Shown here piece by piece: positions 18,469 through 35,803 of a DNA stretch of 64,000 bases. The stretch is taken from assembly GCF_024171815.1 (NCBI RefSeq), contig NZ_JAMTCJ010000001.1:1302001-1366000 (forward strand), read 5' to 3'. Within the stretch, counting starts at the first letter, position 1, and each line of letters starts with the position of its first letter. The stretch comes from Williamsia maris (lineage in GTDB: Bacteria > Actinomycetota > Actinomycetes > Mycobacteriales > Mycobacteriaceae). Made by a program: the position numbers and the translations under genes. Below the pieces are notes generated by a model, which was given only the letters and a program-made list of their open reading frames with translations, had not been told where the DNA came from and did not search any database.

Positions 18469-18494
18469 TACAACTAATGCTTGTCGCGCCACAA
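18469..18494 (+). promoter_or_regulatory. Island motif copy E upstream of the DUF5313-eno-gpm operon
   Basis: TACAA-CTAATGC-TTGTCGCGCCACAA: a half site, 7 bases, then TTGT-N6-ACAA type repeats. It has the same layout and the same gene-sense orientation as the motif copies upstream of the TDT, DUF302 and PSD-like genes. The start of the first gene is about 80 bases downstream. Candidate LysR-type operator. Confidence 0.55.
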
Positions 18495-18573
18495 CGACTC
18501 CTCTGTTCCCGATGTCCGGCCGTGAGCGCATCCTGTGTTCACAGAGCATTCTCCAAACGATGGAGTCGAGAAC

Positions 18574-19020
18574 ATGAGCGCACAATCGGTCCGCCCCGGT
18601 CTTGTCGAATGGCTCGGCTATGTCGTCGGCCGCACACTGCCGGTCGAGTACAACGATTGGGTGAGAAACGATCTCACCGGGCGACATGCGGCCGCGAGAC
18701 ACATTCTTCGCAACGAGCTCGTCTTCTCGCCGTTCTTCGTCGCAGCGCTCTTTCTTCCCGGGCCGTGGATTTTGCGGCTGTCGACCTTGGCGCTCGGATT
18801 CATCCTGGGAACCTTCTACACCGTCGCGTACATGAAGCCGCAGCGCGAAGGGCGTCTCCTCGCGCACGGGTTACCCGCAGATCTGTTGACCGCGCACGAG
18901 GCAACTCGTCATGACCAGCAGCGCCGCAGCTTCGAGCACGAGTACCGAAGCGGGGCCGCCGATCTGTCTGGTTCACGACTGCAGCCGACCCCCAGGTCGC
19001 CCGAGCCTCGTTTCATGTGA
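18574..19020 (+). CDS. DUF5313 family membrane protein
   Basis: A 148-residue protein of the actinobacterial DUF5313 type: RPGLVEWLGYVVGRTLPVEY, NDWVRNDLTGRHAAARHILR, then two adjacent membrane segments (residues about 52-90, FSPFFVAALFLPGPWILRLS and TLALGFILGTFYTVAYM). The function is unknown. The ATG at 18574 has GGAG about 10 bases upstream; an in-frame ATG at 18535 is less likely. It leads the operon with enolase and phosphoglycerate mutase (next start 12 bases after the stop) and is the first gene of the accessory island. Confidence 0.8.
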   Translation: MSAQSVRPGLVEWLGYVVGRTLPVEYNDWVRNDLTGRHAAARHILRNELVFSPFFVAALFLPGPWILRLSTLALGFILGTFYTVAYMKPQREGRLLAHGLPADLLTAHEATRHDQQRRSFEHEYRSGAADLSGSRLQPTPRSPEPRFM

Positions 19021-19031
19021 ACGGAGATCCC

Positions 19032-20309
19032 ATGCAGATCAGAAGAGTTGTGGCCATCCAGGTTCTGGATTCACGGGGGAATCCCACCATCCGGGTGAGC
19101 TTGACCGATGATGGTGGCCGCGAATTCGTCGCCGGTGTGCCTGCCGGTGCGTCCACGGGCACGCGCGAAGCGAAGGAGCTGCGTGACGGAGATCCGAATC
19201 GCTTCGGTGGGAGGGGGGTGTCGCGTGCCGTGGAGCACGTGAACGACGAGATCGCCGAGCTGGTCACAGCACAGGCGTGGACACGCCTCGCCGATCTGGA
19301 CGACGCGTTGCGGTCGCTGGACGGCACGACGGACAAATCCCGGCTCGGGGCGAATGCGATCGTCGGAGTGTCGATGGCCGCGGCCCGCGCATTCGCCCAC
19401 GACAGGAGGGAGCCGCTCTACCGCTATCTCTCATCATTGACGAGAACCGCACTGCGACTGCCGGTTCCGCATTTCAATGTGCTCAATGGCGGCGCGCATG
19501 CGGCCAACGCACTCGATTTTCAGGAGTTCATGATCGCTCCCATCGGCGCACCGTGTTACGCCGAGGCGTTGCGGTGGGGAGCCGAGGTGTATGCGTCACT
19601 GCGGTCCGAACTGCGCCGGGTTGGTCTGACGAGCGGACTGGGTGACGAAGGTGGCTTCGCCCCCGACATCGCCGATCCCCGACGAGCTTGTGAGTTGCTC
19701 GTCGCAGCGATCGGAAACACGGGATTGAACGCCGGTTCTGAGGGCGTCGCGCTCGCGATCGATCCCGCTGCGAACGGGTTCTTCGACGGATCCTCGTATT
19801 CGCTGGACGGGAAGGAGATGAGTCCGTCGGCACTGGTTGAGTTCTATCGCGGTCTCATCGACGAGTTCCCGGTGTGGTCCTTGGAAGACGGGTGCGCCGA
19901 AGGTGACGACGAGGGGTGGCAGCTGCTGACCCGAGAGCTGGGTGACGTGGTCCAGTTGGTGGGCGACGACATCTTCGTGACCGACCCAGAGACGATCCGA
20001 GCCGCTGCCGACGCCGATCTCGCGAACGCCGCTCTCATCAAGGTCAACCAGATCGGGACGGTGTCGGAGACCCTCGACGCGTTGTCAGTGTGCCGTGAGC
20101 GCGGGTACGCGGCCATGATCAGCCACCGGTCGGGAGAGACCCCGGACTCCTTCATCGCAGATCTGGCCGTTGGAAGCGGTTGCGGCCAAATCAAATCCGG
20201 TGCACCAGCGCGCGGCGAGAGAGTCGCGAAGTACAACCGTCTGCTGGAGATCGCAGCGCAGGAGAACGACGTACCCTATGGTCTCGCCGTACTGCGGGTT
20301 GATCGGTGA
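19032..20309 (+). CDS. eno: Enolase, accessory paralogue
   Basis: A 425-residue phosphopyruvate hydratase that interconverts 2-phosphoglycerate and phosphoenolpyruvate. VLDSRGNPTIRV and GASTGTREAKELRDGD hold the mobile loop; NGGAHAANALDFQEFMI, GLGDEGGFAP, LAIDPAANGFFD, LEDGCAEGDDEGW, GDDIFVTDP, IKVNQIGT and GQIKSGAPARGERVAKYN retain the catalytic Glu, Lys and metal-binding Asp/Glu residues. The commonly seen AASEF is AANGF here. GGAG precedes the ATG at 19032. It sits outside the usual ftsB-linked enolase locus, in an island with fluoride exporters. As fluoride inhibits enolase, a spare or fluoride-tolerant enolase is a plausible role (inference). Its stop overlaps the gpm start. Confidence 0.93.
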   Translation: MQIRRVVAIQVLDSRGNPTIRVSLTDDGGREFVAGVPAGASTGTREAKELRDGDPNRFGGRGVSRAVEHVNDEIAELVTAQAWTRLADLDDALRSLDGTTDKSRLGANAIVGVSMAAARAFAHDRREPLYRYLSSLTRTALRLPVPHFNVLNGGAHAANALDFQEFMIAPIGAPCYAEALRWGAEVYASLRSELRRVGLTSGLGDEGGFAPDIADPRRACELLVAAIGNTGLNAGSEGVALAIDPAANGFFDGSSYSLDGKEMSPSALVEFYRGLIDEFPVWSLEDGCAEGDDEGWQLLTRELGDVVQLVGDDIFVTDPETIRAAADADLANAALIKVNQIGTVSETLDALSVCRERGYAAMISHRSGETPDSFIADLAVGSGCGQIKSGAPARGERVAKYNRLLEIAAQENDVPYGLAVLRVDR

Positions 20310-21031
20310 CCGAAGGCCGCTTGGTGATCGTGCGCCACGGTGAGAGCGTCACCAACGCGGCGAGGGTGTTCACCGGGTGGCTCGATGTCGAGCTGACGAT
20401 GCGGGGCCGTTCTGAGGCCACCCGTGTCGGGCAGACCTTGGCCGAGACCGACTGCATCCCAGACATCATGCACACATCGACCCTCTCGCGATCGCAAGAG
20501 TCGGCGCGCCTGATCTGCGAGGCGCTGCCTCGATCACTCGACGCGCACATCACCGCGCATCGGTCGCTGGATGAGCGGCACTACGGGGCGTTCACCGGGC
20601 GCGACAAAAGCGACGTTCTAGGTGCTGTTGGCCCCGAATTCTTCGACGAAGCGCGAAATTCACTCATCGTGCCCCCACCACCGCTGTCCGGCAACGATCT
20701 GGCACGCCTGAGGAATTCGAGGTGGCCATCGAGCCGCCTGTCGCTGACCGGGATCCTGACGGAGTCCCTCGGTGACGTTGTTCTCCGCGTCTCCAGATTC
20801 TGGCAGGAAACGTTGTCGAGTGAACTGGGGGCGGGCGCAACGGTGCTCGTCGTGGCGCACGGAAATTCACTGAGGGCGCTCTTGGTGGTCATCGAGCATC
20901 TGTCGCAGTCGGAATTGGCGGCGCGCCGTCTGGGAACGGGTGAGCCGCTGCTCTATCGCTTCGGCCACAACTTCTCGCCCACCGTGCACGGCGGCGAAAC
21001 CATGAAGCCCCCACCAACAGAGCAGGTCTAG
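20306..21031 (+). CDS. gpmA: 2,3-bisphosphoglycerate-dependent phosphoglycerate mutase-like protein
   Basis: A 241-residue histidine phosphatase superfamily protein. LVIVRHGESVTNAARVFTGW carries the catalytic RHGE, TLSRSQESARLI and DERHYGAFTGRDK the substrate residues, and VVAHGNSLRALLVVIEHLS the second His. The arrangement matches dPGM, which interconverts 3- and 2-phosphoglycerate, although the middle (residues 110-150) is divergent and has no PLxxSL motif in the usual place. The GTG start overlaps the enolase stop by 4 bases, so the two consecutive glycolytic steps are coupled. It converges with the histidine phosphatase gene, overlapping by 4 bases. Confidence 0.88.
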   Translation: MTEGRLVIVRHGESVTNAARVFTGWLDVELTMRGRSEATRVGQTLAETDCIPDIMHTSTLSRSQESARLICEALPRSLDAHITAHRSLDERHYGAFTGRDKSDVLGAVGPEFFDEARNSLIVPPPPLSGNDLARLRNSRWPSSRLSLTGILTESLGDVVLRVSRFWQETLSSELGAGATVLVVAHGNSLRALLVVIEHLSQSELAARRLGTGEPLLYRFGHNFSPTVHGGETMKPPPTEQV

Positions 21032-21588
21032 GAATCGACCTTCCAATTCATCGCTTGCACCGACCACCGATTGCCATCCTCGGAGATGAGGTGGCATGAC
21101 CCGGGGGCGATGGTCTCGTCGATCGTGCCTCCGATGATCGACTCGAGGATGGGTCGTAACACCGCGTCATGACTGACGAGGACCACCGGTCCGCTGGTCG
21201 CGGTCTGCGCTGCGTCGACGACGGCGGGCCAGACGCGCTCGAACACATCGGATTGCGGCTCGACTCCAGGGGCGGCATCAACGCGTCCGAACAGTCTGAT
21301 CACCTCAGTGCGCAGCTCACCGGTCCATTCGCCGTAATCACGATCGTTGAGCCGAGCGTCGACGTGATGGGCGATGGCGGCGGCGTCGGCGATGATCGTC
21401 GCTGTGCGCACCGCTCGCTCCAGCGGACTCGACCACACCACGTGAGGGTTCAGGCGAGCGATGTCGGCTGCCACCGCCTTCGCCTGATCGATACCGATGC
21501 TGTCGAGTTCGGGATCGGCGAGACCTCGAAGCCGGTCCTCGGCATTGAGCACGGTGCGACCGTGCCGGACGAGAATGATCCGGCTCAT
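21028..21588 (-). CDS. Histidine phosphatase family protein
   Basis: A 186-residue phosphoglycerate-mutase-like phosphatase: SRIILVRHGRTVLNAEDRLR has the RHG motif, WSSPLERAVRTATIIADA, NDRDYGEWTGEL, and LVSHDAVLRPILESIIGG has the second catalytic His. It lacks the residues of a true mutase and is closer to cofactor-independent or broad phosphatases (CobC/PhoE-like). The ATG at 21588 overlaps the end of the usp gene by 4 bases. It is the last gene of the riboswitch-headed crcB-crcB-usp operon. The substrate is unknown, perhaps a phosphorylated glycolytic intermediate. Confidence 0.85.
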   Translation of the reverse strand: MSRIILVRHGRTVLNAEDRLRGLADPELDSIGIDQAKAVAADIARLNPHVVWSSPLERAVRTATIIADAAAIAHHVDARLNDRDYGEWTGELRTEVIRLFGRVDAAPGVEPQSDVFERVWPAVVDAAQTATSGPVVLVSHDAVLRPILESIIGGTIDETIAPGSCHLISEDGNRWSVQAMNWKVDS

Positions 21589-22103
21589 CGGTGGGCCTCG
21601 TCGGTGTCGCGCGGTACGACGAGTATCGGCATGTCGTGTCGTCCGATCAATCCGTGTGCCACCGACGGTTCGCCGAGAGATTCGAGGAAGGACCGTAGAC
21701 CGCTGTGCGGTGATCCGACGACAACCATCAGGGAGTCGTTGTCGTGGGCGACGGAGAGGAGAAGACGCGCGGGGTCTCCGTGCGCGCAGTGATACGTCCA
21801 GCCGGCGTCGACGTCGCGGAGTGCCGCTACCGCGTCGTGGGCTTGAGAATCGAGGGTGCGTCGGATCTCGTCCTCCCAGTCCGCCGAATCCGGGTCGACC
21901 GGCAGGTCGTCGATGTCGACGATGTGAACGACGTGTAGGTGGGCGGCGAGGCGCCGCGCGAGATCGACCGCGAAGGTGAGCGCTGACCCGCTCGCCGATT
22001 CGTGATCCCACCCGACGACGAGTGAGGTGGTTGCGGCGCGAGCGTCCGTTGTGCTCGACATGGTGCGATGACGTTCGATGTCGAGTTCGGGATCGTTGTC
22101 CAT
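21585..22103 (-). CDS. Universal stress protein (UspA) domain protein
   Basis: A 172-residue single Usp domain: TTSLVVGWDHESASGSALTF at the start, then LHVVHIVDI, and MVVVGSPHSGLRSFLESLGE with IGRHDMPILVVP at the end. The GSPHSGxxxxxxxGS-like ATP-binding loop is altered (GSPHSGLRSFLESLGEPS), so nucleotide binding is uncertain. AGGA lies about 8 bases before the ATG at 22103; MSSTTDAR at 22061 is another possible start. It is between crcB and the phosphatase gene in one operon. Usp genes are among those reported to be controlled by fluoride riboswitches. Confidence 0.85.
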   Translation of the reverse strand: MDNDPELDIERHRTMSSTTDARAATTSLVVGWDHESASGSALTFAVDLARRLAAHLHVVHIVDIDDLPVDPDSADWEDEIRRTLDSQAHDAVAALRDVDAGWTYHCAHGDPARLLLSVAHDNDSLMVVVGSPHSGLRSFLESLGEPSVAHGLIGRHDMPILVVPRDTDEAHR

Positions 22104-22147
22104 GAGATGGTCCTGCCGTTGTAGTGGGATGTGGCGTAGTTGACAGT

Positions 22148-22516
22148 TCAGAGTGCGGAGGTCAGGAGGAGTCCCAGAGCGCATGCGGCAACCGACGCTC
22201 CGAGTGTGCCGAGGATGTTGACGGCCGCAGCAAGATGCGCCCGCTGCTGGATGAGTCGGACGCTTTCGAAGCTCGCTGTGCTGAAAGTGGTGTAACCGCC
22301 GCAGAATCCCGTCCCGAGGACCGTTTGCCACCCGGGTGCTGCACCGTGGAAGAGCGCTGCGCCGGCCAGACCCCCGAGGAAAAAGGAACCCGAGACGTTG
22401 ATCGCGATGGTCGCCCACGGGACAGTGCTCTTCCATCGGGATTTGACCTCTGCATCGACCACGAACCGGCACACCGCGCCGATCGCCCCTGCGATGATCG
22501 TCAGCATCAGTGTCAT
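22148..22516 (-). CDS. crcB: Fluoride channel Fluc/CrcB, second subunit
   Basis: A 122-residue protein with four membrane segments. VPWATIAINVSGSFFLGGLA carries the conserved Asn of the channel (family GTLxVN-x-x-G) and GTGFCGGYTTFSTASFESVR is the GF(C)GGxTTFSTF signature with the central Na+ site and Phe-box region. Fluc channels let fluoride leave the cell as dual-topology dimers; paired genes make heterodimers. The ATG overlaps the first crcB stop by 4 bases. It lies in the operon under the fluoride riboswitch at 23.03-23.09 kb. Confidence 0.93.
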   Translation of the reverse strand: MTLMLTIIAGAIGAVCRFVVDAEVKSRWKSTVPWATIAINVSGSFFLGGLAGAALFHGAAPGWQTVLGTGFCGGYTTFSTASFESVRLIQQRAHLAAAVNILGTLGASVAACALGLLLTSAL

Positions 22517-23007
22517 CGGTCGCCATCCGCTGTACGTCGCAGAGACGCGGCTGCGGTGATGCCGACCCAAGCGGCGATGATGCCACCGACCACACTCGCC
22601 GCGGCATATCCGGCTGCCAATCCCGCTGCACCATCGCGGACGAGGAGTGACGCCTCGAGAGCCAGGGTGCTGTAAGTGGTGAATGCGCCGCATACGCCGG
22701 TGCCCACGAGCACCCTGGTTCGGCGGCGCCATCCAGAGTCGGGACCCAGACGGGCGAGCGCCTCGAGGAGCCCGCCCAGAACGGCCGCTCCGGCGAGGTT
22801 GATCACGAATGTGCCGGTCGGCCACCCGGTGCCATCGTGGGGCAGCAAGAGTTCGATGCCGTACCGTGCCGCTGTTCCCGCTGCTCCCCCGAGTAGAACC
22901 AGGCCGAGCGCTTCCGGATGCAAGTGGAACGGGACTCCCGCGCGACCGCCGGAGTCGGGGTCGATCGGCAGCTTGTCGAGGTCTCGTCGCCTGTCACCGG
23001 AACGCAT
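22513..23007 (-). CDS. crcB: Fluoride channel Fluc/CrcB, first subunit
   Basis: About 164 residues: a charged N-terminal tail (RSGDRRRDLDKLPIDPDSGG), then four membrane segments. GGAAGTAARYGIELLLPHDG, GTFVINLAGAAVLGGLLEAL and GTGVCGAFTTYSTLALEASL are the CrcB signatures. ATG 23007 is preferred because GGGTGG precedes it; the upstream ATG at 23028 directly touches the riboswitch and has no binding site. The gene pairs with the next one as a heterodimeric fluoride channel. It is the first gene downstream of the riboswitch. Confidence 0.92.
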   Translation of the reverse strand: MRSGDRRRDLDKLPIDPDSGGRAGVPFHLHPEALGLVLLGGAAGTAARYGIELLLPHDGTGWPTGTFVINLAGAAVLGGLLEALARLGPDSGWRRRTRVLVGTGVCGAFTTYSTLALEASLLVRDGAAGLAAGYAAASVVGGIIAAWVGITAAASLRRTADGDR

Positions 23008-23029
23008 GCGCCCACCCATCATCGACATG

Positions 23030-23090
23030 GGTAGGAACCATCAGCCGTGTGGCGGTTCGAGCAGATGCTCCGGCGGGATCCATCACCGTG
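23030..23090 (-). promoter_or_regulatory. Fluoride riboswitch (crcB motif)
   Basis: On the minus strand the region reads GGTGATGGATCCCGCC, an optional small hairpin (GAGCATCTGCTC), then GAACCGCCACACGGCTG, then ATGGTTCCTACC. This follows the known aptamer layout GGxGAUGxxxxCCGCC ... AxCxGCC-loop-GGCUGAUGxxxxCUAC, as in the Thermotoga petrophila structure. P1 forms from GGATCC with GGTTCC (one mismatch), P3 from GCC/GGC, and the pseudoknot from the 5' GGTG with CGCC. It ends at the crcB start region, so it probably controls translation or early termination. TAGGCT at 23097-23102 is a possible -10 element. Confidence 0.9.
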
Positions 23091-23099
23091 TTCGTCAGC

Positions 23100-23411
23100 C
23101 TAGCGTGTGCGGGTCGATCGGCGAATCGGGCCGTAAGCACTGAGGTACTTCGCTCGTCGCGCGCGAACGACATCACGACGCAGCGCCGGATCGCGGGACA
23201 CGCTCAGATCCATCCTCAGGAGCGCGTACGCCGAGCCGAACAGCACAAGGGTGATCACCGCCATCACGATCCAGAAGATGACTTCGCCGCCGGCAAGCGC
23301 CACGAGGGTCACGCCGCCGGTTGCTGTGCCTGCCATCACCATCGTCGCCGCAGCCCACATGGCCGGTGTGGTTCGCCGTTCGCGGCGCAGTCGTCGTTGA
23401 ATGTCGTTCAT
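23100..23411 (-). CDS. Small two-helix membrane protein, unknown function
   Basis: A 103-residue protein with an arginine-rich start (NDIQRRLRRERRTTPAMWAA) and two membrane segments (residues about 18-40 and 45-68), then a basic tail. AAGGAG lies 6 bases before the ATG at 23411, which decides the start over longer alternatives at 23456 and 23417. It follows the TDT transporter gene by 48 bases in the same direction and may be an accessory subunit. Its stop codon overlaps the probable -10 of the crcB operon. No family is recognised. Confidence 0.7.
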   Translation of the reverse strand: MNDIQRRLRRERRTTPAMWAAATMVMAGTATGGVTLVALAGGEVIFWIVMAVITLVLFGSAYALLRMDLSVSRDPALRRDVVRARRAKYLSAYGPIRRSTRTR

Positions 23412-23459
23412 CGTCATCTCCTTGGAAGAGAAATCGGTGTTCTCGTCGCTGCTCACCGA

Positions 23460-24635
23460 TCAGGCGGGGAGGAAGACCTTGCCGCTGATGGTGCCGCGAA
23501 GGGTGTGGGTGGCGACCGTGGCCCAGGCGGTCAGCAGCACGACGTAGAGGCCGACGGCCATCGCGTGGATGACCGAGATGCCGGCTGCGGTGCCCAGTGC
23601 GGTGGCACCGGTGACACAGGTTCCCACCGGGAAGGTGAAGCTCCACCAGGTGAGTGAGAAGCTCAGCCCGCGCCGTGCGGCGTGGATGGTCAGCATGGTG
23701 GCGAGGGCGAACATCAGGATGCCGAATCCGCCCATCGCGAAGCCGTATGCGATGCCGAAGATGTGGAGTCCGGTCGCGATGACGGCCTGCTTGCCGACGA
23801 ACACCGTCGCGGCGTGGGTGCCGAGCAGGTTCGTGGCGGTGATGGACTGGCCGATCATGCCCAGGGTGATCCACACAGTGGGTGCGGCCTGCACGGCGGG
23901 CATGCCGCCGTGGACCAGGCGCGAGTAGATCATCGTCATGGTGATCATCCCGAGGAACAGGCTCAGTCCGAACATGGCATAGCAGGCGGCGATGAGCGCG
24001 AGCCGCGACTGCCCGGCCGCGACGTGATCGAGCAACAGTGCGCCGGTCGACGCAGACACCATCGGAGGCACGATGGGCATCAACCACGCGGGTAACGCCA
24101 TGGCGGTGTCGTGATCGTGAGCGGTGATCATCCGGTACGGAATCCACAGACTGGTGGCCAGACCGGTCAGTGTTCCCGCGGTCCACAGGACTGCGTCGAT
24201 CCACACCGCGGCGCTCGAGCCGATGAGCGCAGGTCCCAACGTGATCGCGCCGGCGCCCACGGTGAGCATCGCCATCGGCGGTGCACCGTAGAACTGCGAC
24301 ATCACCGGGTGTGCGGCGTGGGCACGGGCGTGACCGCGGTGCAGCGTCCAGTGCGCAGCGAAGGCGACTGTCAGCGCGACCAACGCGGTCGACGCGATGA
24401 GCCACACCACGGTCGCGAAGGTGTGCAGGCCAGTGAACTGCAGGGGCAGGGTGGCGGCCGCGTTCGCGACGATGCCTGTTCCCATCACCGAGGCGTACCA
24501 GTTGGGGGTGATGTGCTCGAGCATCTGGCCGGGGCGACCCAGGTGCCCGAACACGACCGGAGCGCGACGATGCGACTCCGACCGGTCCGCCGGGCGCGCG
24601 ACGGTTGACGAGGTGAGGTTCACGGTGGTGGACAT
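23460..24635 (-). CDS. TDT family transporter (tellurite-resistance/dicarboxylate; SLAC1/Ssu1 fold)
   Basis: A 391-residue protein with about ten membrane segments. ITPNWYASVMGTGIVANAAA near residue 40 is the TDT signature, and WSFTFPVGTCVTGATALG near residue 330 carries a conserved pore Phe region. The family includes TehA, malate permease and the fungal sulfite exporter Ssu1, so this is probably an anion channel or exporter. Given the sulfite-oxidase-family gene nearby, sulfite is one candidate. ATG 24635 begins the conserved protein; the extension to 24713 overlaps the regulatory motif. The motif copy A lies 47 bases upstream, suggesting control by the island LysR. Confidence 0.88.
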   Translation of the reverse strand: MSTTVNLTSSTVARPADRSESHRRAPVVFGHLGRPGQMLEHITPNWYASVMGTGIVANAAATLPLQFTGLHTFATVVWLIASTALVALTVAFAAHWTLHRGHARAHAAHPVMSQFYGAPPMAMLTVGAGAITLGPALIGSSAAVWIDAVLWTAGTLTGLATSLWIPYRMITAHDHDTAMALPAWLMPIVPPMVSASTGALLLDHVAAGQSRLALIAACYAMFGLSLFLGMITMTMIYSRLVHGGMPAVQAAPTVWITLGMIGQSITATNLLGTHAATVFVGKQAVIATGLHIFGIAYGFAMGGFGILMFALATMLTIHAARRGLSFSLTWWSFTFPVGTCVTGATALGTAAGISVIHAMAVGLYVVLLTAWATVATHTLRGTISGKVFLPA

Positions 24636-24682
24636 ACATCGATTCTCGGCGGATGGAACGTGCGACACCAGAGAGTGCTGAC

Positions 24683-24708
24683 TTGTGGGGCCACAAACTG
24701 CATTTGTG
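24683..24708 (-). promoter_or_regulatory. Island motif copy A upstream of the TDT gene
   Basis: In gene sense: CACAA-ATGCAGT-TTGTGGCCCCACAA, made of CACAA-N7-TTGTG and the perfect palindrome TTGTGG-CC-CCACAA. It ends 47 bases before the TDT start. It has the same layout and orientation as the copies at 18469, 25879 and 32041. The N7-spaced inverted repeat is typical of LysR-type boxes. Confidence 0.65.
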
Positions 24709-24723
24709 TCCACACGCGCGTAA

Positions 24724-24767
24724 ATCGACCAGTGCAGAAGCGTCCGGGCGCTTCTGCACTGGTCGAT
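24724..24767 (-). terminator. Perfect 19-bp hairpin after the DUF302 lipoprotein gene
   Basis: ATCGACCAGTGCAGAAGCG (24724-24742) pairs perfectly with CGCTTCTGCACTGGTCGAT (24749-24767) around a 6-base loop. It lies 28 bases downstream of the lipoprotein stop and before the TDT promoter, so it insulates the two units. Confidence 0.8.
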
Positions 24768-24794
24768 GGGAACTCGTGACGGGAGGCGGTGCAG

Positions 24795-25784
24795 TCAGTT
24801 TCCCGTTCCGGCTGCCGCACTCGTGAAGGTCGACGTGGCGGTGTCGACCATGGCGAGCACGGGGCTCGTCGACGGTATGGAGTGACGAGCGGCCAGGCCG
24901 CGGTAGTCCGGGTGCGCGACATGGACCACGCCGTCGGCGTCCTGCCAGGCCGAGTAGCGGACGGGGAGATCGATCCCCATGGTCTGCTGCTGCGACAGCA
25001 GCGCGGTCGACACAGTGGGATTTCCGACGAGGATCGTCATCGTGGGCCGCAGCGCGACCCCCACGCTCTGCCCCGCCGCTGCGAGATCCACGGTGGCAAC
25101 CGTGGGCAGTTGCTTGGCTGTGAACGCGGCGGCGTATCGCGCGATCGACTCCGTGACCGACGCGTTGCTTACCTTCTCGACCAGATACGGAACCGACGTC
25201 GATGTGACGCTGCCGCCCGCCGCGGCCGATGTCGAGCCCGTTGCCGCGGAGGTGATGGCCGCCGATCCGGTCCGCAGTGCGTCGAGTTGTCCCGAGCTGA
25301 CCGCCAGCCCGGCGCGTTGCGCGATGTAATCGGCCGAATTGTAGGCGACGAACACCGTGCCACCCGCTGCCTGCCAGACGAGGTACTTCTGCGGCAGATC
25401 GATCGCCGTCCGTTGATCGGCCGCCACCACCGGGGCGACCGCGCTTGGATTTCCTCCGATCACGACTGTCGTCGGCCGCAGTTGCTTGCCGATCTTGCTC
25501 GCCAACGCTGCGAAGTCGACCGTGGCGGTGACGGTTCCCTTGTCTGAGATGCGCTGCCGCAGCGCGCTGACCGTGTCACTGAAGGAATGTCTGCTGACGT
25601 AGACGATGAGTCCCGATTCCTGGGGGGCCGCGTCGCGCGCGGTGGTGTTGGCCGATGTCGACGCGGATGTCGCCGCCGTCGACGACGTGGCCGTGTTCGT
25701 CGATGAGGTCGAGCAGGCGGCGAGAAGAACAATGGACGCGGTGGCGACCGTTGCGGTCATAGCGCGCAGAGGACCGGATTTCAT
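24795..25784 (-). CDS. Lipoprotein with two DUF302 domains
   Basis: A 329-residue exported protein. The signal peptide ends at the lipobox LLAACS (Cys near residue 24), followed by a Ser/Thr/Ala linker. Two DUF302-type domains follow: residues about 58-150 (TVSALRQRISDKGTVTATVD; LRPTTVVIGGNPSAVAPVVA; QKYLVWQAAGGTVFVAYNSA) and about 200-315 (LRPTMTILVGNPTVSTALLS; VRYSAWQDADGVVHVAHPDY). DUF302 proteins are common beside metal and anion stress genes, but their function is unknown. Motif copy C lies about 95 bases upstream and a perfect hairpin terminator follows. The duplicated domain in one lipoprotein is unusual. Confidence 0.87.
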   Translation of the reverse strand: MKSGPLRAMTATVATASIVLLAACSTSSTNTATSSTAATSASTSANTTARDAAPQESGLIVYVSRHSFSDTVSALRQRISDKGTVTATVDFAALASKIGKQLRPTTVVIGGNPSAVAPVVAADQRTAIDLPQKYLVWQAAGGTVFVAYNSADYIAQRAGLAVSSGQLDALRTGSAAITSAATGSTSAAAGGSVTSTSVPYLVEKVSNASVTESIARYAAAFTAKQLPTVATVDLAAAGQSVGVALRPTMTILVGNPTVSTALLSQQQTMGIDLPVRYSAWQDADGVVHVAHPDYRGLAARHSIPSTSPVLAMVDTATSTFTSAAAGTGN

Positions 25785-25878
25785 GAAGGGTGTTCCTGAC
25801 GTCAGGTGGGAGCCATCGAGTCGATGGCCTGACGGTCAGTGTCAGGTGACGACAGACCCCTCAGCTACGGGCAGCTGC

Positions 25879-25904
25879 TTGTGACCTCACAAATTGGCGT
25901 TGTC
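25879..25904 (-). promoter_or_regulatory. Island motif copy C upstream of the DUF302 lipoprotein
   Basis: In gene sense: GACAA-CGCCAAT-TTGTGAGGTCACAA, with the perfect palindrome TTGTGA-GG-TCACAA at the gene-proximal end. It lies 94 bases before the lipoprotein ATG, in the same orientation as copies A, B and E. Confidence 0.6.
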
Positions 25905-25928
25905 GCACGCGAGAGACGGCCAACCTGA

Positions 25929-26126
25929 TCAGTCTGTGTCAGAGAGGGTTCCGTGGGGTCGTCGCCTAAAGAACTGCTTCCACCAACGCCTTGGTGCGTA
26001 GCGAAATAACCGGTAGTCGTCGCGGCCACCCTCGGCGAAGCGCCAGAGGTTGAGCATCACGACGGGACCCCCGGGATCCTCGGCGAGAAAGCGCTTCAGG
26101 CCGACACCGCGGGGATCAATGGCCAT
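25929..26126 (-). pseudogene. Truncated DUF1330-family remnant
   Basis: MAIDPRGVGLKRFLAEDPGG and PVVMLNLWRFAEGGRDDYRL resemble the N-terminal part of DUF1330 proteins (DPGGPVVMLNLxRF). After about 40 residues the sequence turns basic and stops at residue 65, well short of the family's usual length of about 95-130. The start overlaps the end of the permease gene by 11 bases. It is best read as a gene decayed by truncation; a short expressed peptide cannot be excluded. Confidence 0.5.
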
Positions 26127-27273
26127 GCTGGGAGCCTTCCATACTCGGAGCGCCGCCCATCATCGACAACATCCCACGCCCGCCACTGCGGAAGAATCTC
26201 ACGACGAGGCCGACGGCGAGGATGACGGCGACGATGTTCAGCCATGTGGTGTAGTTCCAACTGATCCCGGCGTCGGGGAGATGGGCGTCGGCACGACTCG
26301 GCGCCAGTCCCGTCGGCGTGAAGAGGAGTTCGACCACGTATCCCGCGACGACCATGGCGACGTAGAAGGTCCCCGCGATCATCATGGTCATGCGCCAGCC
26401 GTAGTACTTCCGATAGATGTTGAGGATGGGCAGGATCAGCAAATCGGCGAAGACGAACGCGATCACCCCACCGAAGCTGATCCCACCCGTCCACAGAACC
26501 ACGGCGAGTGGCACATTGCCGACCGAGCAGACAAAGCTGATCACCGCGACGATGGGACCGATCAAGGGTCCCCAGATCGCTGCGAGCACGGGGTGTCCTT
26601 CCAGGAACAATCCCTGCCAGAAGCTGTCGGGGACCCAGGCTCCGACTGCGCCGGCGATGAGGAGTCCGATCACCAGGTCTTTCCAGATGGCCGCCCATTC
26701 CATCACGAACACGTGACTGACCGAGGTCGCGGCCTCGCGCGACGCCAACCGGCGTAGGAACCCGCCCTTGCGCCGTACCGACATGTCCATGGCCGCATGG
26801 CCTTCCATCGAGCCGGACAGGCCCTTGTCGGCCTGCTCCGCCGCATCTCGGATCAGCTTCGTCGTCAGGAGCCTGCGGAACAGCAATGCGACGATGACGA
26901 TGATCACCGGCCCGCCGATGAATTCGGCCGCCGTGAATTGCCACCCCATCAACAGGAGCAGGATCACCCCGAGCTCGATCACCATGTTGGTCGACGCGAT
27001 CTGAAAGGTCATGGCGGCGGTGAAATTCGCCCCCTTGCGGAAGAGTGAGCGCGCAAGTGCCACCGCTGCGTACGAACAGGACGACGATGCGATGCCGAAA
27101 CCGGTCGCGGTGGCGAGGGATCGAGGGCTGTCGTCGCCGAGGAGCCGCACCATGGTTCCGCGGCGGACGACCGCCTGCACGACGGCCGAGAGGAGGAATC
27201 CCAGAACCAGCGCCCAGAGGATCTCCCAGGTCATCGAGCCGGTCAGGCGTAGAGCATGTTCTATGGCGTTCAT
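26116..27273 (-). CDS. Predicted permease, DUF318/ArsP-like family
   Basis: A 385-residue protein with about nine membrane segments. GFGIASSSCSYAAVALARSL, FRKGANFTAAMTFQIASTNM and VISFVCSVGNVPLAVVLWTG are the hallmark motifs of the DUF318 (PF03773) permeases, with the conserved Cys residues in SSSCSYAA and FVCSVGN. Relatives export organoarsenicals (ArsP) or have unknown roles, and many are copper- or metal-linked. The C-terminal tail is His/Met-rich (SMMGGAPSMEGSQHGH). It begins 18 bases after the multicopper oxidase stop and is probably part of the copper-responsive operon. Confidence 0.88.
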   Translation of the reverse strand: MNAIEHALRLTGSMTWEILWALVLGFLLSAVVQAVVRRGTMVRLLGDDSPRSLATATGFGIASSSCSYAAVALARSLFRKGANFTAAMTFQIASTNMVIELGVILLLLMGWQFTAAEFIGGPVIIVIVALLFRRLLTTKLIRDAAEQADKGLSGSMEGHAAMDMSVRRKGGFLRRLASREAATSVSHVFVMEWAAIWKDLVIGLLIAGAVGAWVPDSFWQGLFLEGHPVLAAIWGPLIGPIVAVISFVCSVGNVPLAVVLWTGGISFGGVIAFVFADLLILPILNIYRKYYGWRMTMMIAGTFYVAMVVAGYVVELLFTPTGLAPSRADAHLPDAGISWNYTTWLNIVAVILAVGLVVRFFRSGGRGMLSMMGGAPSMEGSQHGH

Positions 27274-27291
27274 ATCAGATCCTGTTCGTGG

Positions 27292-28797
27292 TCAGATTCG
27301 GTAGTCAAGGCGGGTCATCATTCCGGCGTCCTGGTGATAAGCATTGTGGCAGTGCAGCATCCACTGTCCAGGGTTGTCGGCGACGAGATCGACGACGACG
27401 CGTTCGCCCGGACGTACGGCTACGGTGTCCTTGCGCGGGCCAGGGGTGCCGTCGGGTCGTCGAACCTGAAATGTGTGGCCGTGCAGATGCATCGGGTGCC
27501 ACATCGTCGTGGTGTTGGTGAAAGTGAGGCTGGCCCGTTGGCCCTGGGTGATCATGATGGGTTCCATCTGCTCGTAGACCCGCCCGTTGATGGTCCACTG
27601 GTACTTGCTCATGGTGCCCGCGAGTATCGCTTGCAGTGCGGCGTCCTCGCGGCCGGTGGGCAATGTGACGTCGTCGGTGGCGACGAAGGTGTCGACGGTA
27701 CCGACGAATCCGTCCAACTCGGCAGGACGAACGTTCACCGCGGGTGTGGCCCCCGCGCCGGTGCGCAGCAGCGCGCGAGCGGTGCCGGTCTTCCCCTCTG
27801 GAGACGCCACCAGAGGGAATACCCCGTCTTTCACCGTGACGAGCACGTCGTAGCGTTCGGACATCCCGATCAGGAGCGCGTCGACGTCAGTCGGTGTCAC
27901 CGGGAAACCGTCGGTGTGGGTCACGGTCATCCGGTGCCCACCCAGTGCGACACGGAAGGCGGTGTCCGCACCGGCGTTGATGATGCGGATACGAATTCGT
28001 TGTCCCGGCGCAGCAGTGAATGTCGTCGGCGCGTTGGCGATTCGCCCGTTGACCAGGTAGAGCGGGTAGGCGACGTCTCCGGCGTCGCCACCGAGGAGAG
28101 CGCTCGTGCCGACCCCACTCGTTGAGCCTCCCGACATGCCGCCCATGGACATGCCGCCCTTCTGAAGCGACGTGAGGATGTCTCGGGGACTGTTCCCGAC
28201 ACCGTCGGTCCAGTCGTCGAGAACCACGATCCATTCCTTGTCGTGATCGTGCGGCTCACGAGGGTCGTCGATGATGATCGGAGCGTAGAGGCCGAAGTCA
28301 CTCTGCAATCCGACGTGCGGATGCGCCCAATATGTTCCGGAGTCCGGTACCGAGAAGCGGTAGGTGAAGGCGTCGCCTGCGGCGATGTCCGGAGTCGCCG
28401 GTGCCGCTCCGTCCATGTCATTGCGCAATGCGATTCCGTGCCAGTGCACCGATGTCGCGTCGGTCAGTGCGTTGCGCGTGGTGATCGACAATTCGTCGCC
28501 GACGTTGGCGCGGATGACCGAGCCCGGAATGGTGTCGCCGTATGCGTAGGTGTTCACAACCGGGCCGCCGAGATCGATGTCGGTTCGCCGCGGATCGAGG
28601 GTGTACGAGACCGTCCGTCCGGTGTGCGGTCGTCGGGCCTCGGCGGCATCGATCGCACTCTTGTTGACCCGGTGTGCGTCGACCGGACTGACCGCACGCG
28701 TGCCGCACGCGGCGGCGGCGGCGGTGAGGCCCATGGCCGCAGCTCCCAGAAAGGTTCGCCGACTGACCGGACGCGTGGTGATGTTCGAGGTGTTCAT
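27292..28797 (-). CDS. mmcO: Multicopper oxidase, MmcO-like
   Basis: A 501-residue exported oxidase. RRTFLGAAAMGLTAAAAACG is a Tat signal ending in a possible lipobox (AAC). Three cupredoxin domains carry all four copper motifs: HWHG, HPHVG (YWAHPHVG), HPMHLHGH and HCHNAYHQDAGMM with the type 1 copper ligands. A Met/Gly-rich loop GGMSMGGMSGGSTSG near residue 220 may bind Cu(I). It probably oxidises Cu(I) to Cu(II) outside the membrane, as MmcO does in M. tuberculosis. It lies between the LpqS-like gene and the permease, downstream of a CsoR/RicR-type operator. Confidence 0.93.
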   Translation of the reverse strand: MNTSNITTRPVSRRTFLGAAAMGLTAAAAACGTRAVSPVDAHRVNKSAIDAAEARRPHTGRTVSYTLDPRRTDIDLGGPVVNTYAYGDTIPGSVIRANVGDELSITTRNALTDATSVHWHGIALRNDMDGAAPATPDIAAGDAFTYRFSVPDSGTYWAHPHVGLQSDFGLYAPIIIDDPREPHDHDKEWIVVLDDWTDGVGNSPRDILTSLQKGGMSMGGMSGGSTSGVGTSALLGGDAGDVAYPLYLVNGRIANAPTTFTAAPGQRIRIRIINAGADTAFRVALGGHRMTVTHTDGFPVTPTDVDALLIGMSERYDVLVTVKDGVFPLVASPEGKTGTARALLRTGAGATPAVNVRPAELDGFVGTVDTFVATDDVTLPTGREDAALQAILAGTMSKYQWTINGRVYEQMEPIMITQGQRASLTFTNTTTMWHPMHLHGHTFQVRRPDGTPGPRKDTVAVRPGERVVVDLVADNPGQWMLHCHNAYHQDAGMMTRLDYRI

Positions 28798-28898
28798 GAA
28801 GTCTCTCCAGATGATGAGTGCGCGCAGCGGCTGATGTCGCAGCGCAGGCCGGCCTGGTGGGCGGTGTCGTCGAACAGACGACGTGCCGCAGGCGTCAC

Positions 28899-29357
28899 TC
28901 AGATCTGTAGAACACTCTTGTCGTGGAGAATTGTCACGCCGGTCGTCGGAGGGCTACGCGAGCTGTGCGTTCGTCGCGAGGACGGAGGCGTCACCTCATC
29001 GGCCGGAAGTGCGCGTGTGGCGAGGACGGCCGGGTCGTGGTGGTCGACAGCCGCGCCCGTGGGGATCGCCAGGTCGACCGTCGAATGGTTCGAGCAGTGG
29101 GCGGTGGGTGCCGAAGCTGTCTCGTGATGCGCGCGGCGCACACTCGGTACGGCAGTGGCCGCCGACTCCGCCTGATGGGACGCGGCGAGGGCGACCGCGC
29201 CCTCCGGTTGCTGCGCTGACGTGCCGTCGACGCAGAAACACAGTCGGATCGTCGCGAGTACGGCGAGCACGACCATGACATAGAAGGTCGCGACGATCGG
29301 TCGCCGCGTGCCACGAGGCAATACCCCTGTGCCCGTTGCGGCGGTCCCGATCTGCAT
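28899..29357 (-). CDS. LpqS-like small exported protein
   Basis: A 152-residue protein with one membrane or signal segment (RPIVATFYVMVVLAVLATIR, then LCFCVDG) and a His-containing extracytoplasmic part (HHETASAPTAHCSNHS, AVDHHDPAV). It ends in TGVTILHDKSVLQI, similar in position to the C-terminal segment of mycobacterial LpqS, which is encoded next to mmcO in the RicR regulon. Overall similarity is weak, so the name rests mainly on context and architecture. The start lies 14 bases downstream of a copper-type operator; TATAGA between them is a possible -10. Confidence 0.6.
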   Translation of the reverse strand: MQIGTAATGTGVLPRGTRRPIVATFYVMVVLAVLATIRLCFCVDGTSAQQPEGAVALAASHQAESAATAVPSVRRAHHETASAPTAHCSNHSTVDLAIPTGAAVDHHDPAVLATRALPADEVTPPSSRRTHSSRSPPTTGVTILHDKSVLQI

Positions 29358-29370
29358 GCCATCGAATCTA

Positions 29371-29385
29371 TACCCCTATGGGGTA
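29371..29385 (-). promoter_or_regulatory. CsoR/RicR-type copper operator
   Basis: TACCCC-TAT-GGGGTA is a 15-base inverted repeat of the kind bound by Cu(I) sensors of the CsoR/RicR family (TACCC...GGGTA). In gene sense it is followed by TATAGA, a likely -10, so bound repressor would block the promoter of the lpqS-mmcO-permease operon. Confidence 0.75.
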
Positions 29386-29465
29386 CCCGTCGAGTCCTCG
29401 GCGGTGCGGCGCCTCGCGTCCGACCACGGGTGGCGACGTCCAGGCGAAGCATCTGCGCGGCCGCG

Positions 29466-30386
29466 TCAGCTTCGTGACGCCGCCACGTGCCCGACGAGAT
29501 CCCGGATCGCCCCGGCAGGGGGAGTCCGGCCGCCCATCCACACGGCTCTCAGGTCACGGCGGAGACCGATGCCGTCGGTGGCGACGGCCACGAGCCGACC
29601 GAGTGTGAGGTCGTCGGCCACCGACAGGCGACTCAGAACTGCCGGGCCGGCGTTTGCCAAGACAGCGGATCGGACGCCCGAGGCAGTGGTCATCTCCATC
29701 GCGGGCGCAGCCTGCGGATGGGTGGGACCGAGCGCCAGACGCATCGCGTAGGACAGAAAGTCGCGTGTCCCCGATCCTGTTTCGCGGGTGACCAGCGACG
29801 TCGTGCTCAACTCCTCGGCCGTCACCGGACGCGTTCGCTTCGCCCACGGGTGCGCCCGCGCGACGACGACGACGAGTTCGTCGTGGTCGACGATGCGGCT
29901 GCGCACTCCCTTCGGTGTTCCCGGACTCTCGACGAAGCCGAGATCTACGTCTCCGTCGCGTACGGCGGCGATCGCCTGCTCGCTGTTGGATGCCACCAGC
30001 GTCACCTCCGGGGGCGCAACGCCGAGCCGGATCGACTCGGCTCGCTGCGACATCAACCACCGAGGTAGGAGCTGTTCGGCGATCGTCAGGCTCGCCGCGA
30101 CCCGAAGGTGCGCGCGTGCGTCCGTGCGGAGCGAGGCCAACCCGGAATCGAGGCGGTGAGCGGTGTCGAGAAGTCCGTCGGCCCACTCCGCCACGACGCG
30201 ACCGGCGGGGGTGAGGGTGGAACCACGGCTGGTTCGAATGACCATCTGGACTCCGGTCTGCGCCTCCATCGAGCGGATGCGAGCAGAGACGGCCTGCTGT
30301 GTCAGATTCAGCTGATGTGCAGCAGCGGTGAGACTGCCGCCGGCAGCGACAGCAGTGAGAACCTCGAAGGCGGTCAGATCCGGCAT
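29466..30386 (-). CDS. LysR family transcriptional regulator
   Basis: About 306 residues. DLTAFEVLTAVAAGGSLTAA and AHQLNLTQQAVSARIRSMEA form the winged helix-turn-helix; the substrate-binding domain follows from about residue 90 (LRVAASLTIAEQLLPRWLMS; LGFVESPGT; VTRETGSGTRDFLSYAMRLA). The last resembles CysB/CbbR-like anion sensors. Start MPDLTAF at 30386 is preferred; MSYGAI at 30422 is possible. A partial copy of the island motif lies just upstream at 30426-30444, fitting autoregulation. It is the likely regulator of the shared motif sites in this island; its ligand is unknown. Confidence 0.9.
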   Translation of the reverse strand: MPDLTAFEVLTAVAAGGSLTAAAHQLNLTQQAVSARIRSMEAQTGVQMVIRTSRGSTLTPAGRVVAEWADGLLDTAHRLDSGLASLRTDARAHLRVAASLTIAEQLLPRWLMSQRAESIRLGVAPPEVTLVASNSEQAIAAVRDGDVDLGFVESPGTPKGVRSRIVDHDELVVVVARAHPWAKRTRPVTAEELSTTSLVTRETGSGTRDFLSYAMRLALGPTHPQAAPAMEMTTASGVRSAVLANAGPAVLSRLSVADDLTLGRLVAVATDGIGLRRDLRAVWMGGRTPPAGAIRDLVGHVAASRS

Positions 30387-30425
30387 GCGTGAACTCAGGG
30401 CCACGATCGCACCATAGCTCATCGT

Positions 30426-30444
30426 CCACAACCACGGATTGTGG
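30426..30444 (-). promoter_or_regulatory. Island motif copy D (partial) upstream of lysR
   Basis: In gene sense CCACAA-TCCGTGG-TTGTGG, an inverted repeat with 7-base spacing as in copies A, B, C and E but without the third CACAA arm. It abuts the lysR start, as expected for LysR autoregulation. Confidence 0.55.
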
Positions 30445-30523
30445 CGGTCCGGCAGTACGGAGCGCCGCGATCAACCCGAGTCGGACGGGGTGGCCTCCTG
30501 AGATGTTCGGGCGAGTCAGAGTG

Positions 30524-31789
30524 TCAGGACAGCTGTGGGCGGGGTGCGGCGGTGGCGAGGTGGGAGTTCACACGGACCAGCGGAGCGTGCGGGTCGTTGG
30601 TCTGCGGGACGGACTGCAGGGCGAACTCGTTGATAGCGCCCGGCCGGAAAACGAGGCAGTGTGTCGACCCGCCGAACTGGAAGTAGCCCAGCTCGTCGCC
30701 CTTTCCGATGTGTGCCCCGGGGCGGACGTCGTCGGAGATCAGACACGAGGACACCTCCGACATCCCGATGGCCACGAACGCCATCCGCCCGATCACCGGG
30801 TTGTCGGCGTCGATGACGATGATCGCCCGCGCCGAGACGTGCGCGAGGTACGACTGGGAGTGGGTCGGCTGCAGCGCGTCGCCTTGGCCGTCGGCTTCGG
30901 AGAAGTAGGTGCCGTCGACGAGTCGTGTGCTCACGATGGTGCCCGCGACCGGGCTGTGCCAGCGGTGGTAGTTGAAAGCACTGAGGAACGCCTGGTAGAC
31001 GGTCCCGCCGTCGAACGCGTCCACCGACGGGTCGTTGTCGAGCAGATCGGCGAGCGAGTACGGCTGCCCCTTGACCCAGAACGATTCACGCAGTGAGACA
31101 TCGGTACTGATGCGGTAGGGCGTGGACTCACACGCACTGACGATGACGGAGTCGTCGTCGGGGGCGGCGACGGGACGCGCTCCGGGCGTGAAGGTCCGGG
31201 TGAAGAAATCGTTCCATGACGAGAAACCCGCATGCTCGTCATCGGGGTTGTGTTCGAACTCATCGAACCCGATCTTGTCGCGCGCCTCCTGACAGAGCCA
31301 GCCCGAGGGAGAGTCGTCGAGGACGTACCGCGAACCGGGGCTGCTCAGGAACTCGCACCAGGCCGTCAAGATCTTCTTCAGCATGGCGTTCACGCGGGGG
31401 TCGCGGAACGCGGAATGTCCCGCGGCGGTTCCCATCGACCAATCGAGAATCGCGCCGAGAGGTGTGACGACGGAGTTGGGACCGTATTCAGGTGCGACGG
31501 TGAGGACCTCGTCGATCAGACGCAACAACTGGGGGAGATCCTGTACGTGTCGGTCGCGGTAGGTCCTGCCCGTCGGGACCTGCTCGATCATCTTCTCCAG
31601 GTACATACGGACCACCGGATCCGCGTCGATCAGCTCCTGAAACTCGACGATGACCGGGTGTACCACGCGGCCATCGGTCGACTCGGCCTTCTCGCGGTGC
31701 CCCCGCAACCACTGCTCGAGGTCGTCCTGCTCAGCGGGGAGCCAGCCACCCTGGCGGCGGGAATCGGAATGCGACTTGTCTACGGTCAT
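30524..31789 (-). CDS. Phosphatidylserine decarboxylase-related enzyme (PsiD-like architecture)
   Basis: A 421-residue protein. The N-terminal 170 residues (WLPAEQDDLEQWLRGHREKA; TYRDRHVQDLPQLLRLIDEV; FRDPRVNAMLKKILTAWCEF) are the PSD-associated domain found in PsiD and fungal relatives; the C-terminal half (SSWNDFFTRTFTPGARPV; YHRWHSPVAGTIVSTRLVDG; GDELGYFQFGGSTHCLVFRP) is a PSD domain. FGGST corresponds to the LGST/GGSS self-cleavage site whose Ser becomes the pyruvoyl group. It lacks a membrane anchor, so a soluble amino-acid decarboxylase is likelier than membrane PSD. It stands alone on its strand, with motif copy B about 250 bases upstream. Confidence 0.85.
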   Translation of the reverse strand: MTVDKSHSDSRRQGGWLPAEQDDLEQWLRGHREKAESTDGRVVHPVIVEFQELIDADPVVRMYLEKMIEQVPTGRTYRDRHVQDLPQLLRLIDEVLTVAPEYGPNSVVTPLGAILDWSMGTAAGHSAFRDPRVNAMLKKILTAWCEFLSSPGSRYVLDDSPSGWLCQEARDKIGFDEFEHNPDDEHAGFSSWNDFFTRTFTPGARPVAAPDDDSVIVSACESTPYRISTDVSLRESFWVKGQPYSLADLLDNDPSVDAFDGGTVYQAFLSAFNYHRWHSPVAGTIVSTRLVDGTYFSEADGQGDALQPTHSQSYLAHVSARAIIVIDADNPVIGRMAFVAIGMSEVSSCLISDDVRPGAHIGKGDELGYFQFGGSTHCLVFRPGAINEFALQSVPQTNDPHAPLVRVNSHLATAAPRPQLS

Positions 31790-32056
31790 AATGCGACGCT
31801 ACACCAGAACTTCGACATGTGTTGCAGCACAATGATACTGAGAACATTCTGAGGATGTGCGGCATGGAACCGTCCTGCTGCCCCAGTTCGGGGTGATGTG
31901 CCCGAACACGCGCGGGCGGCACTGCGAGGCCGAATCGACGCGGTGCGTCGAATGCCGGGTCCGCAGGGTGTGGAAGCGAGTGACGGTGCTCGTTCATCGA
32001 GTCTCGGCGCGAACCATCAGCAGGGGTAGAGGGAGCAACGTTGTGGGGCTACAAGC
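31790..32056. other. Upstream region of the PSD-like gene
   Basis: 267 bases with no convincing gene; an 88-codon frame on the minus strand (31731-31997) has no recognisable features and overlaps the PSD start. The region is less GC-rich near 31.80-31.86 kb, where the promoter should lie. Motif copy B overlaps its right edge. Confidence 0.4.
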
Positions 32057-32067
32057 TCACGTTGTGG
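32041..32067 (-). promoter_or_regulatory. Island motif copy B upstream of the PSD-like gene
   Basis: In gene sense CCACAA-CGTGAGC-TTGTAGCCCCACAA, with the same three-arm layout and orientation as copies A, C and E. It overlaps the stop codon of the sulfite-oxidase-family gene and lies about 250 bases before the PSD-like start, further than the other copies. Confidence 0.55.
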
Positions 32068-35615: not shown

Positions 35616-35620
35616 TCGGC

Positions 35621-35803
35621 GAGTCGCGGATCGCCACACGTGACGCGGTGACCGACTGCCGATGCGAGACCTGCAGCCCGTCGTGTGTGCAGTCACCCAA
35701 GTGCGGCAAAGGAAACGAGCCGCTGGACAAATCCGGAGCGATCGCCGTGCTCGACCTCATCCTCCGGGAGCTTGCCCAAGGCCCACAGAATTCATCGAAT
35801 CGT
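35621..35803 (+). pseudogene. Decayed second copy of the helicase 3' end
   Basis: Encodes ATRDAVTDCRCETCSPSCVQ and SPKCGKGNEPLDKSGAIAVL plus DLILREL, nearly the same as the last 50 residues of the helicase at 18.27-18.42 kb. The stop codon TAG of the intact gene aligns with CAG here, and similarity continues about 25 bases beyond it (TTCATCGAATCGTC against TTCACCGAATCGTC), so non-coding flank was copied too. No start or helicase motifs are present. It is a duplication scar at the right edge of the accessory island. Confidence 0.88.

Follow-up and report, generated by a model that had tools for sequence, protein, structure and literature searches.

In the Gram-negatives Salmonella and Cronobacter, YeiE is a sulfite-binding LysR-type regulator that represses itself without sulfite and controls yeiH (PMC12880088), while in Pseudomonas aeruginosa FinR controls fprA via three alternating half-sites, TATCCA-N5-TGGATA-N5-TATCCA, of which the first palindrome alone is needed for binding in vitro (PMC5302815). 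In E. cloacae FRM, ppaC, uspA, eno, gpmA and crcB form one riboswitch operon (PMC5533749), and enolase is a main fluoride target (PMC11139923). Here we describe a locus that shares traits with all of these systems, i.e., an accessory island within a 64,000-nucleotide stretch of the Williamsia maris genome (the window), which contains one LysR gene, four exact copies of a three-part box, ACAA-N7-TTGT-N6-ACAA, and a two-part copy at the lysR start. These boxes are probably operators of a LysR activator of the YeiE/FinR kind, and in Williamsia a sulfite-type regulon would have been joined to a fluoride-resistance island.

The island regulator is like YeiE in that it belongs to the LysR family, has YeiE as its best NCBIfam match and among its best sequence relatives in PDB, has relatives that are paired with a transporter and has two half-sites by the start of its own gene. 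Unlike YeiE, it scores 147.5 bits where the equivalog cut-off is 480 (and is thus not filed as YeiE itself), its relatives usually have a TDT/SLAC1 partner rather than YeiH, its operator sequence differs, and sulfite is a presumed ligand. The design of the box is close overall to the FinR operator, as both consist of three alternating half-sites (in 11-bp steps for FinR); however, the half-site here is ACAA/TTGT, the steps are 11 and 10 bp and the targets are others, the comparison being one of operators. Like E. cloacae FRM, the island has a fluoride riboswitch, crcB, usp, eno and a gpm-type mutase. Unlike the single riboswitch operon of that strain, it places crcB-crcB-usp-phosphatase behind the riboswitch and eno-gpm on the opposite strand behind a box, and no pyrophosphatase Pfam match was found among the 17 island proteins scanned. 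As for Actinomycetota, according to a 2011 review, no counterparts of the regulators CysB and Cbl were then known from mycobacteria (PMC3141025), and a 2021 study of Rhodococcus IGTS8 reported no homologue of the known global regulators of sulfur metabolism, naming an Rrf2-type candidate (PMC8557817). In the open-access literature we found no paper on this operator, on an actinobacterial sulfite regulon that joins LysR and TDT, or on a role of a LysR protein in fluoride resistance. Sulfite-sensing LysR regulators as such are known; what would be new is the operator, TDT as the partner and the connection with fluoride.

Box sites in the window, the genus and the family

A sequence-only reading of the window had described four sites of one form (sites 1 to 4, before the DUF5313-eno-gpm, TDT, DUF302 lipoprotein and PSD-like genes, respectively), all pointing at their genes, and a fifth, partial copy at the start of the only LysR gene of the island. 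The four sites match the exact 25-mer pattern (that reading had taken in one to two flanking bases), each box reads toward the gene named, and CCACAA-N7-TTGTGG is present at lysR with two half-sites and no third. The window has one LysR helix-turn-helix match, and the genome 19. The box observation itself is confirmed.

The W. maris genome (4.93 Mb on five contigs) contains 5 exact matches to the pattern as compared to 2 for the reversed pattern; the fifth match is on contig C2, in the gap between a divergent second regulator and transporter (LysR2 and TDT2). At the reversed-control rate, four sites within 13.6 kb have a Poisson probability of approx. 4e-11, and on both grounds a chance origin of the four island sites was rejected. 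The genome-wide scan that had been suggested as a check thus gave few good matches outside the island. Weak matches carry no signal, as a TTGTG/CACAA scan with up to 3 mismatches found 80 matches and its reversed control 429; they were not used as evidence, and a single-mismatch place without an evident target (C1:1187923) was not counted as a site. A CRP/GlxR- or Rex-like palindrome, suggested by TTGTG-N4-CACAA, was rejected in favor of a LysR box, which better accounts for the N7 repeat, the asymmetry of the third half and the neighboring LysR genes.

Conservation, the other check that had been suggested, also came out positive. Exact boxes were found in six of eight genus genomes, W. maris included; those upstream of DUF5313(-eno-gpm) and of TDT recur in the related genomes G002, G003 and G004, and two of these, G002 and G003, also share the boxes of the SorA-PSD gap and upstream of DUF302. 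For site 1, G002 and G004 have exact boxes upstream of DUF5313 despite different spacers and surroundings (a comparison based on exact matches, the multiple alignment misplacing the G004 row). Site 3 shows 98% mean column identity across three genomes, which are too alike there for its conservation to be informative. Site 4 has its half-sites, -35 and -10 intact in G000 and G002, and in G002 the remnant of a TDT gene that follows box and promoter carries a 25-bp gap and stops short. At lysR, CACAA-N7-TTGTGG is kept in G002 while the flanks drift; the G002 site holds a complete three-part box, which reads away from lysR.

The same box was surveyed in 401 genomes of the family to which W. maris belongs. 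There were 135 exact copies in 100 genomes as compared to 120 copies of the reversed control in all 401 (a hand sum from the listing); raw abundance was therefore rejected as evidence, and the family evidence is one of position. For 41 of the 135 boxes, a listed TDT/SLAC1 domain match starts 103-172 bp downstream, with the same orientation in 41/41. TDT genes are present in 286 of the genomes, and among the best 150 matches listed 41 have an exact box upstream and 109 have none. We read 111 distinct boxes with their flanks, 76 beside regulon-type genes and 35 without such neighbors; 40 stand before TDT, 4 before DUF5313, 3 each before DUF302, PSD, SorA-like and NIR_SIR reductase genes, 4 each before PntA (transhydrogenase) and FAD (flavin) oxidoreductase genes, 3 before Pyr_redox_2 genes (one of which also abuts a LysR), 7 beside LysR alone and 2 before a LysR; family scans covered these genes. 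For the NIR_SIR proteins the highest score is that of ferredoxin-nitrite reductase, under every cut-off; we take them to be putative sulfite reductases of the mycobacterial kind. The Pyr_redox_2 proteins (Pfam gives only this name) are presumably FprA or ferredoxin-NADP reductases, which would be a further likeness to FinR targets.

Some TDT upstream regions (L162, L164 and L166-L169) carry altered repeats, i.e., ACAG-N7-CTGT, ATAACC...GGTTGG and AGAACCATTCT, at the same place before a CTACC-like sequence, perhaps a sign that regulator and box co-evolve.

Promoter architecture and the LysR regulator

To describe the sequence behind the box, 76 sites were thinned to 52 among those at least 70% alike, with column 0 set at the first box base. 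Sites dropped by hand beforehand were mostly those without a regulon neighbor, plus L045 and L061 (before a LysR); L065, which has no recognized neighbor, was kept. Outside the search pattern, the conserved columns are TCTACC at 35-40 (-35) and nAnnnT at 60-65 (-10), 19 bp apart. With the A and T of nAnnnT taken as -11 and -7, the predicted transcription start falls on column 72, the center of ACAA-N7-TTGT on -65 and the third half at approx. -50. Relative to this predicted start, a 15-bp inverted repeat near -65 and an activation half-site by the -35 form the geometry usual for LysR activators. The sequence-only reading had called the 7-base spacing typical of LysR boxes; a literal T-N11-A is lacking, as the repeat columns read C-N11-G.

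Both promoter elements follow 46 of 63 boxes with tagged neighbors as compared to 624 of 251,712 background positions (0.25%), a test that is partly circular because largely the same sites gave the consensus. They also follow 13 of 48 untagged boxes, 12 of which are pntA, NIR_SIR, Pyr_redox_2 or FAD-oxidoreductase sites. Twelve boxed TDT reading frames begin exactly 47 nt past the box, as in the window (24635), a distance that predicts a leaderless TDT mRNA. Both elements are in register at window sites 2 and 4.

Site 4 is, by its alignment, the promoter of a TDT copy that has decayed. The promoter and N-terminus of the G004 TDT gene align with the 276 bp that precede PSD (69% over 167 columns, E = 2e-12, blastn; a second short match reaches query position 183), and the gene order in G004 is SorA-box-TDT. 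In the window, the TDT copy is reduced to its start between SorA and PSD, and box and promoter lead to PSD approx. 200 bp downstream. The PSD gene, which had been put forward as a target, does have an exact box upstream, but since the site derives from a TDT promoter, its control of PSD may be secondary.

The island LysR has both the LysR helix-turn-helix (PF00126) and the substrate domain (PF03466). Searched against PDB as a single sequence, it matched 8sbf (an unnamed LysR; 68 bits) and YeiE (8sbh; 66 bits); in a profile search the best scores were 130 for 8sbf, 109 for the Rubisco operon regulator 5y2v, 107 for 8sbh and 90 for 7erp. The stretches SxT, NS and RExGSGTR are common to the island LysR and YeiE, with part of them also present in the CbbR-type 5y2v. 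Of the 401 genomes, 43 carry relatives that are at least 50% identical to it (44 copies), and 31 of these 43 genomes have the exact box as compared to 69 of the 358 others (P = 5e-12; Fisher's exact test, kinship uncorrected); for 24 of the 44 copies an exact box lies within 20 kb.

We also opened 5 of the 29 plasmid records in which this LysR has a relative. The exact box is present in the LysR-TDT gaps of plasmids from Arthrobacter sp. FB24 and Cryobacterium arcticum, and ACAA-N7-TTGT in the gaps between LysR and a "putative sulfate exporter" in plasmids of Rhodococcus pyridinivorans, Kocuria rosea and Arthrobacter agilis; PF03601 was confirmed for one of the three exporters, that of R. pyridinivorans. 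These last three plasmids (L149, L151 and L152) pair the same LysR type with a putative YeiH-family exporter, and exporters (TDT or YeiH-family) have apparently been swapped under one kind of regulator. In the island, TDT is not adjacent to lysR. A further 20 regions that lack the three-part box in exact form (19 located before TDT and 1 beside LysR; chosen by us, nearly all with LysR close to TDT) contain ACAA-N7-TTGT exactly in 13 cases and the three-part box with at most 2 mismatches in 10, as compared to a mean of 0.015 and a maximum of 1 among the 20 in 200 shuffles. Overall, these data support one LysR-type regulon spanning the island, as the sequence-only reading had proposed; both sequence tests were passed and the box tracks the LysR clade, whereas the box is not specific to the island, being found family-wide, most often upstream of TDT genes, and beside a second LysR of the same genome.

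Proposed regulation and its alternatives

We propose that ACAA-N7-TTGT near -65 would be the main LysR recognition site and the third half-site ACAA, at approx. -50, an activation half-site beside a weak -35 (TCTACC). With its effector bound (presumably sulfite or a close derivative), LysR would aid RNA polymerase to start at the promoters of TDT, DUF302 and DUF5313-eno-gpm and at the former TDT promoter that now precedes PSD, while lysR itself may be regulated through its two-half site, possibly by autoregulation. Sulfite would be exported by TDT and oxidized by the SorA-like enzyme. In the island, the riboswitch stands before the genes of the crcB pair, USP (the universal stress protein) and the phosphatase, while the LysR box precedes the genes of enolase, the step sensitive to fluoride, and of the mutase. 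If so, box, LysR and a promoter template with defined -35 and -10 elements form a testable regulon in many genera, boxed TDT/SLAC1 transporters gain sulfite as a specific candidate substrate, and the fluoride-resistance genes of Williamsia seem to be split between a riboswitch and the transcription factor of another anion response. It is possible, and we suggest it only tentatively, that a sulfite-type LysR regulon annexed the fluoride island such that sulfite (or SO2 and HF together) pre-induces the spare enolase and mutase while the riboswitch handles export, making it a two-sensor, two-anion island, with the same box serving a sulfur-stress regulon across Actinomycetota.

Several observations weigh against this explanation, besides the low YeiE score and the bare pattern not being over-represented in the family. 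Site 1 has neither promoter element in register, and site 3 has the -10 with a poor -35. LysR2, which is 44% identical to the island LysR and has the same box in its gap to TDT2, appears an equally good candidate binder, and either of the two may act at the island boxes. No wider regulon was found in the W. maris genome, since the sole single-mismatch box elsewhere is unconvincing. Among family genomes with a close LysR, 12 of 43 lack the exact box, and in 14 genomes of genus g9 with a box before TDT, a two-half box near the LysR start was found in 1. Finally, eno or gpm beside a box was not seen outside Williamsia among the sites read.

In one alternative, the boxes, as real LysR operators, would respond to fluoride, another anion or a metabolite and form a second, LysR-controlled arm of fluoride resistance. 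LysR effector pockets diverge easily, and the island that holds the Williamsia boxes also has a fluoride riboswitch, a pair of crcB genes and a CLC gene. Enolase and mutase genes also belong to the fluoride operon of E. cloacae FRM (PMC5533749). Outside Williamsia, however, box and LysR type accompany TDT, SorA-like, NIR_SIR, PntA and plasmid YeiH-family genes, and neither crcB nor eno homologues were found by tblastn in 2-6 kb (two of 10 kb) around the family boxes. Within the genus, G006 has an 86%-identical LysR with TDT and, by tblastn, no other island protein in its 19-kb locus. We consider a non-sulfite ligand unlikely.

It is very unlikely that a different transcription factor binds the box and LysR genes are merely frequent neighbors, even though a divergent LysR within 320 bp is lacking for 23 of the 40 boxed TDT genes read, which also counts against our own proposal, and though the outer palindrome TTGTG-N4-CACAA would fit other dimeric regulators. 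The box occurs, with LysR-type geometry, in LysR-target gaps of several genera and plasmids, and some other LysR-TDT gaps carry a changed repeat at the same place (e.g., ACAG-N7-CTGT). The 14 genus-g9 genomes cut both ways, as each has one such LysR (43-45% identical) but has it elsewhere, away from the box before TDT. Nor does it seem plausible, except as a quite unlikely case, that the TDT site alone is functional and the others are chance matches or fossils. The derivation of site 4 from a decayed TDT promoter and the imperfect promoters at sites 1 and 3 would fit this; on the other hand, exact boxes precede DUF5313 in two more genomes where spacers differ, site 4 keeps box, -35 and -10 where the TDT remnant is gapped, and the low chance probability of four clustered sites applies here too.

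The fluoride-resistance island

The fluoride riboswitch and the crcB pair, which the sequence-only reading had not mentioned, identify the island. The riboswitch stands before the crcB-crcB-USP-phosphatase genes, while eno and gpm are not behind it, being located on the other strand behind box 1; the riboswitch is shared by G002, G003 and G004, and scans of the six other loci detected none. The other enolase gene of the genome is at C1:318992. The CLC protein was assigned by a family test, and fluoride specificity is not claimed for it. A sequence search with TDT among solved structures gave no relative at E 0.001.

The insertion site is the 3' end of a helicase gene, and each edge of the island carries a copy of this end. 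In G005, by match coordinates, a 98%-identical helicase gene is followed directly by the right flank of the window, i.e., the site is uninterrupted; in G002, helicase and right flank are also neighbors and the island lies >50 kb away. These data suggest that the island moves as a unit.

Table 1. Features of the island and its boxes (positions in the window)
Feature	Position	Strand	Basis
Operator 1 (three half-sites), upstream of DUF5313-eno-gpm	18470-18494	+	exact pattern match
DUF5313 gene	18574-19020	+	PF17240, 6.8e-25
Spare enolase	19032-20309	+	TIGR01060, 493 bits (cut-off 300)
Phosphoglycerate mutase, putatively spare	20306-21031	+	TIGR01258, 171 bits (cut-off 81.7)
Histidine phosphatase	21028-21588	-	PF00300, 4.8e-37
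Universal stress protein (USP)	21585-22061	-	PF00582, 1.1e-17
CrcB, second copy	22148-22516	-	PF02537
CrcB, first copy, open reading frame (true start later than 23028)	22513-23028	-	PF02537
Fluoride riboswitch	23025-23096	-	RF01734, 41.7 bits
TDT/SLAC1-family anion transporter	23460-24635	-	PF03595, 1.4e-75
Predicted -10 GAGAAT, TDT promoter	24642-24647	-	family alignment; start codon 24635 on predicted transcription start
Predicted -35 TCTGGT, TDT promoter	24667-24672	-	family alignment, columns 35-40
Operator 2, upstream of TDT gene	24683-24707	-	exact pattern match
Two-domain DUF302 protein	24795-25784	-	PF03625, two stretches
Operator 3, upstream of DUF302 lipoprotein	25879-25903	-	exact pattern match
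LysR-type regulator, YeiE-like (start codon uncertain)	29466-30422	-	PF00126/PF03466; best NCBIfam YeiE, under cut-off
Two-half-site operator CCACAA-N7-TTGTGG at lysR start	30426-30444	-	sequence; no third half-site
PSD-like decarboxylase	30524-31789	-	PF12588 and PF02666
Relic of TDT promoter and N-terminus, upstream of PSD	31883-32065	-	blastn to G004 TDT region
-10 GAGACT, site 4	32000-32005	-	in register with operator 4
-35 TCTACC, site 4	32025-32030	-	in register with operator 4
Operator 4, upstream of PSD-like gene	32041-32065	-	exact pattern match
SorA-like molybdopterin sulfite-dehydrogenase-like protein	32057-33160	-	PF00174/PF03404; SorA 188 bits (cut-off 600)
CLC-family anion channel/transporter (family only)	33255-34610	-	PF00654, 9.6e-74
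Helicase 3'-end copy (of 18254-18407), right island edge	35620-35770	+	blastn, 84% over 154 columns

For the DUF302 protein there is a match to NF002454, "fluoride efflux transporter CrcB", in the C-terminal half of this model (116 bits, cut-off 312), a hint that DUF302 and fluoride go together. Outside the island, a 6C RNA (RF01066, 74 bits) is located at 45259-45334 on the minus strand.

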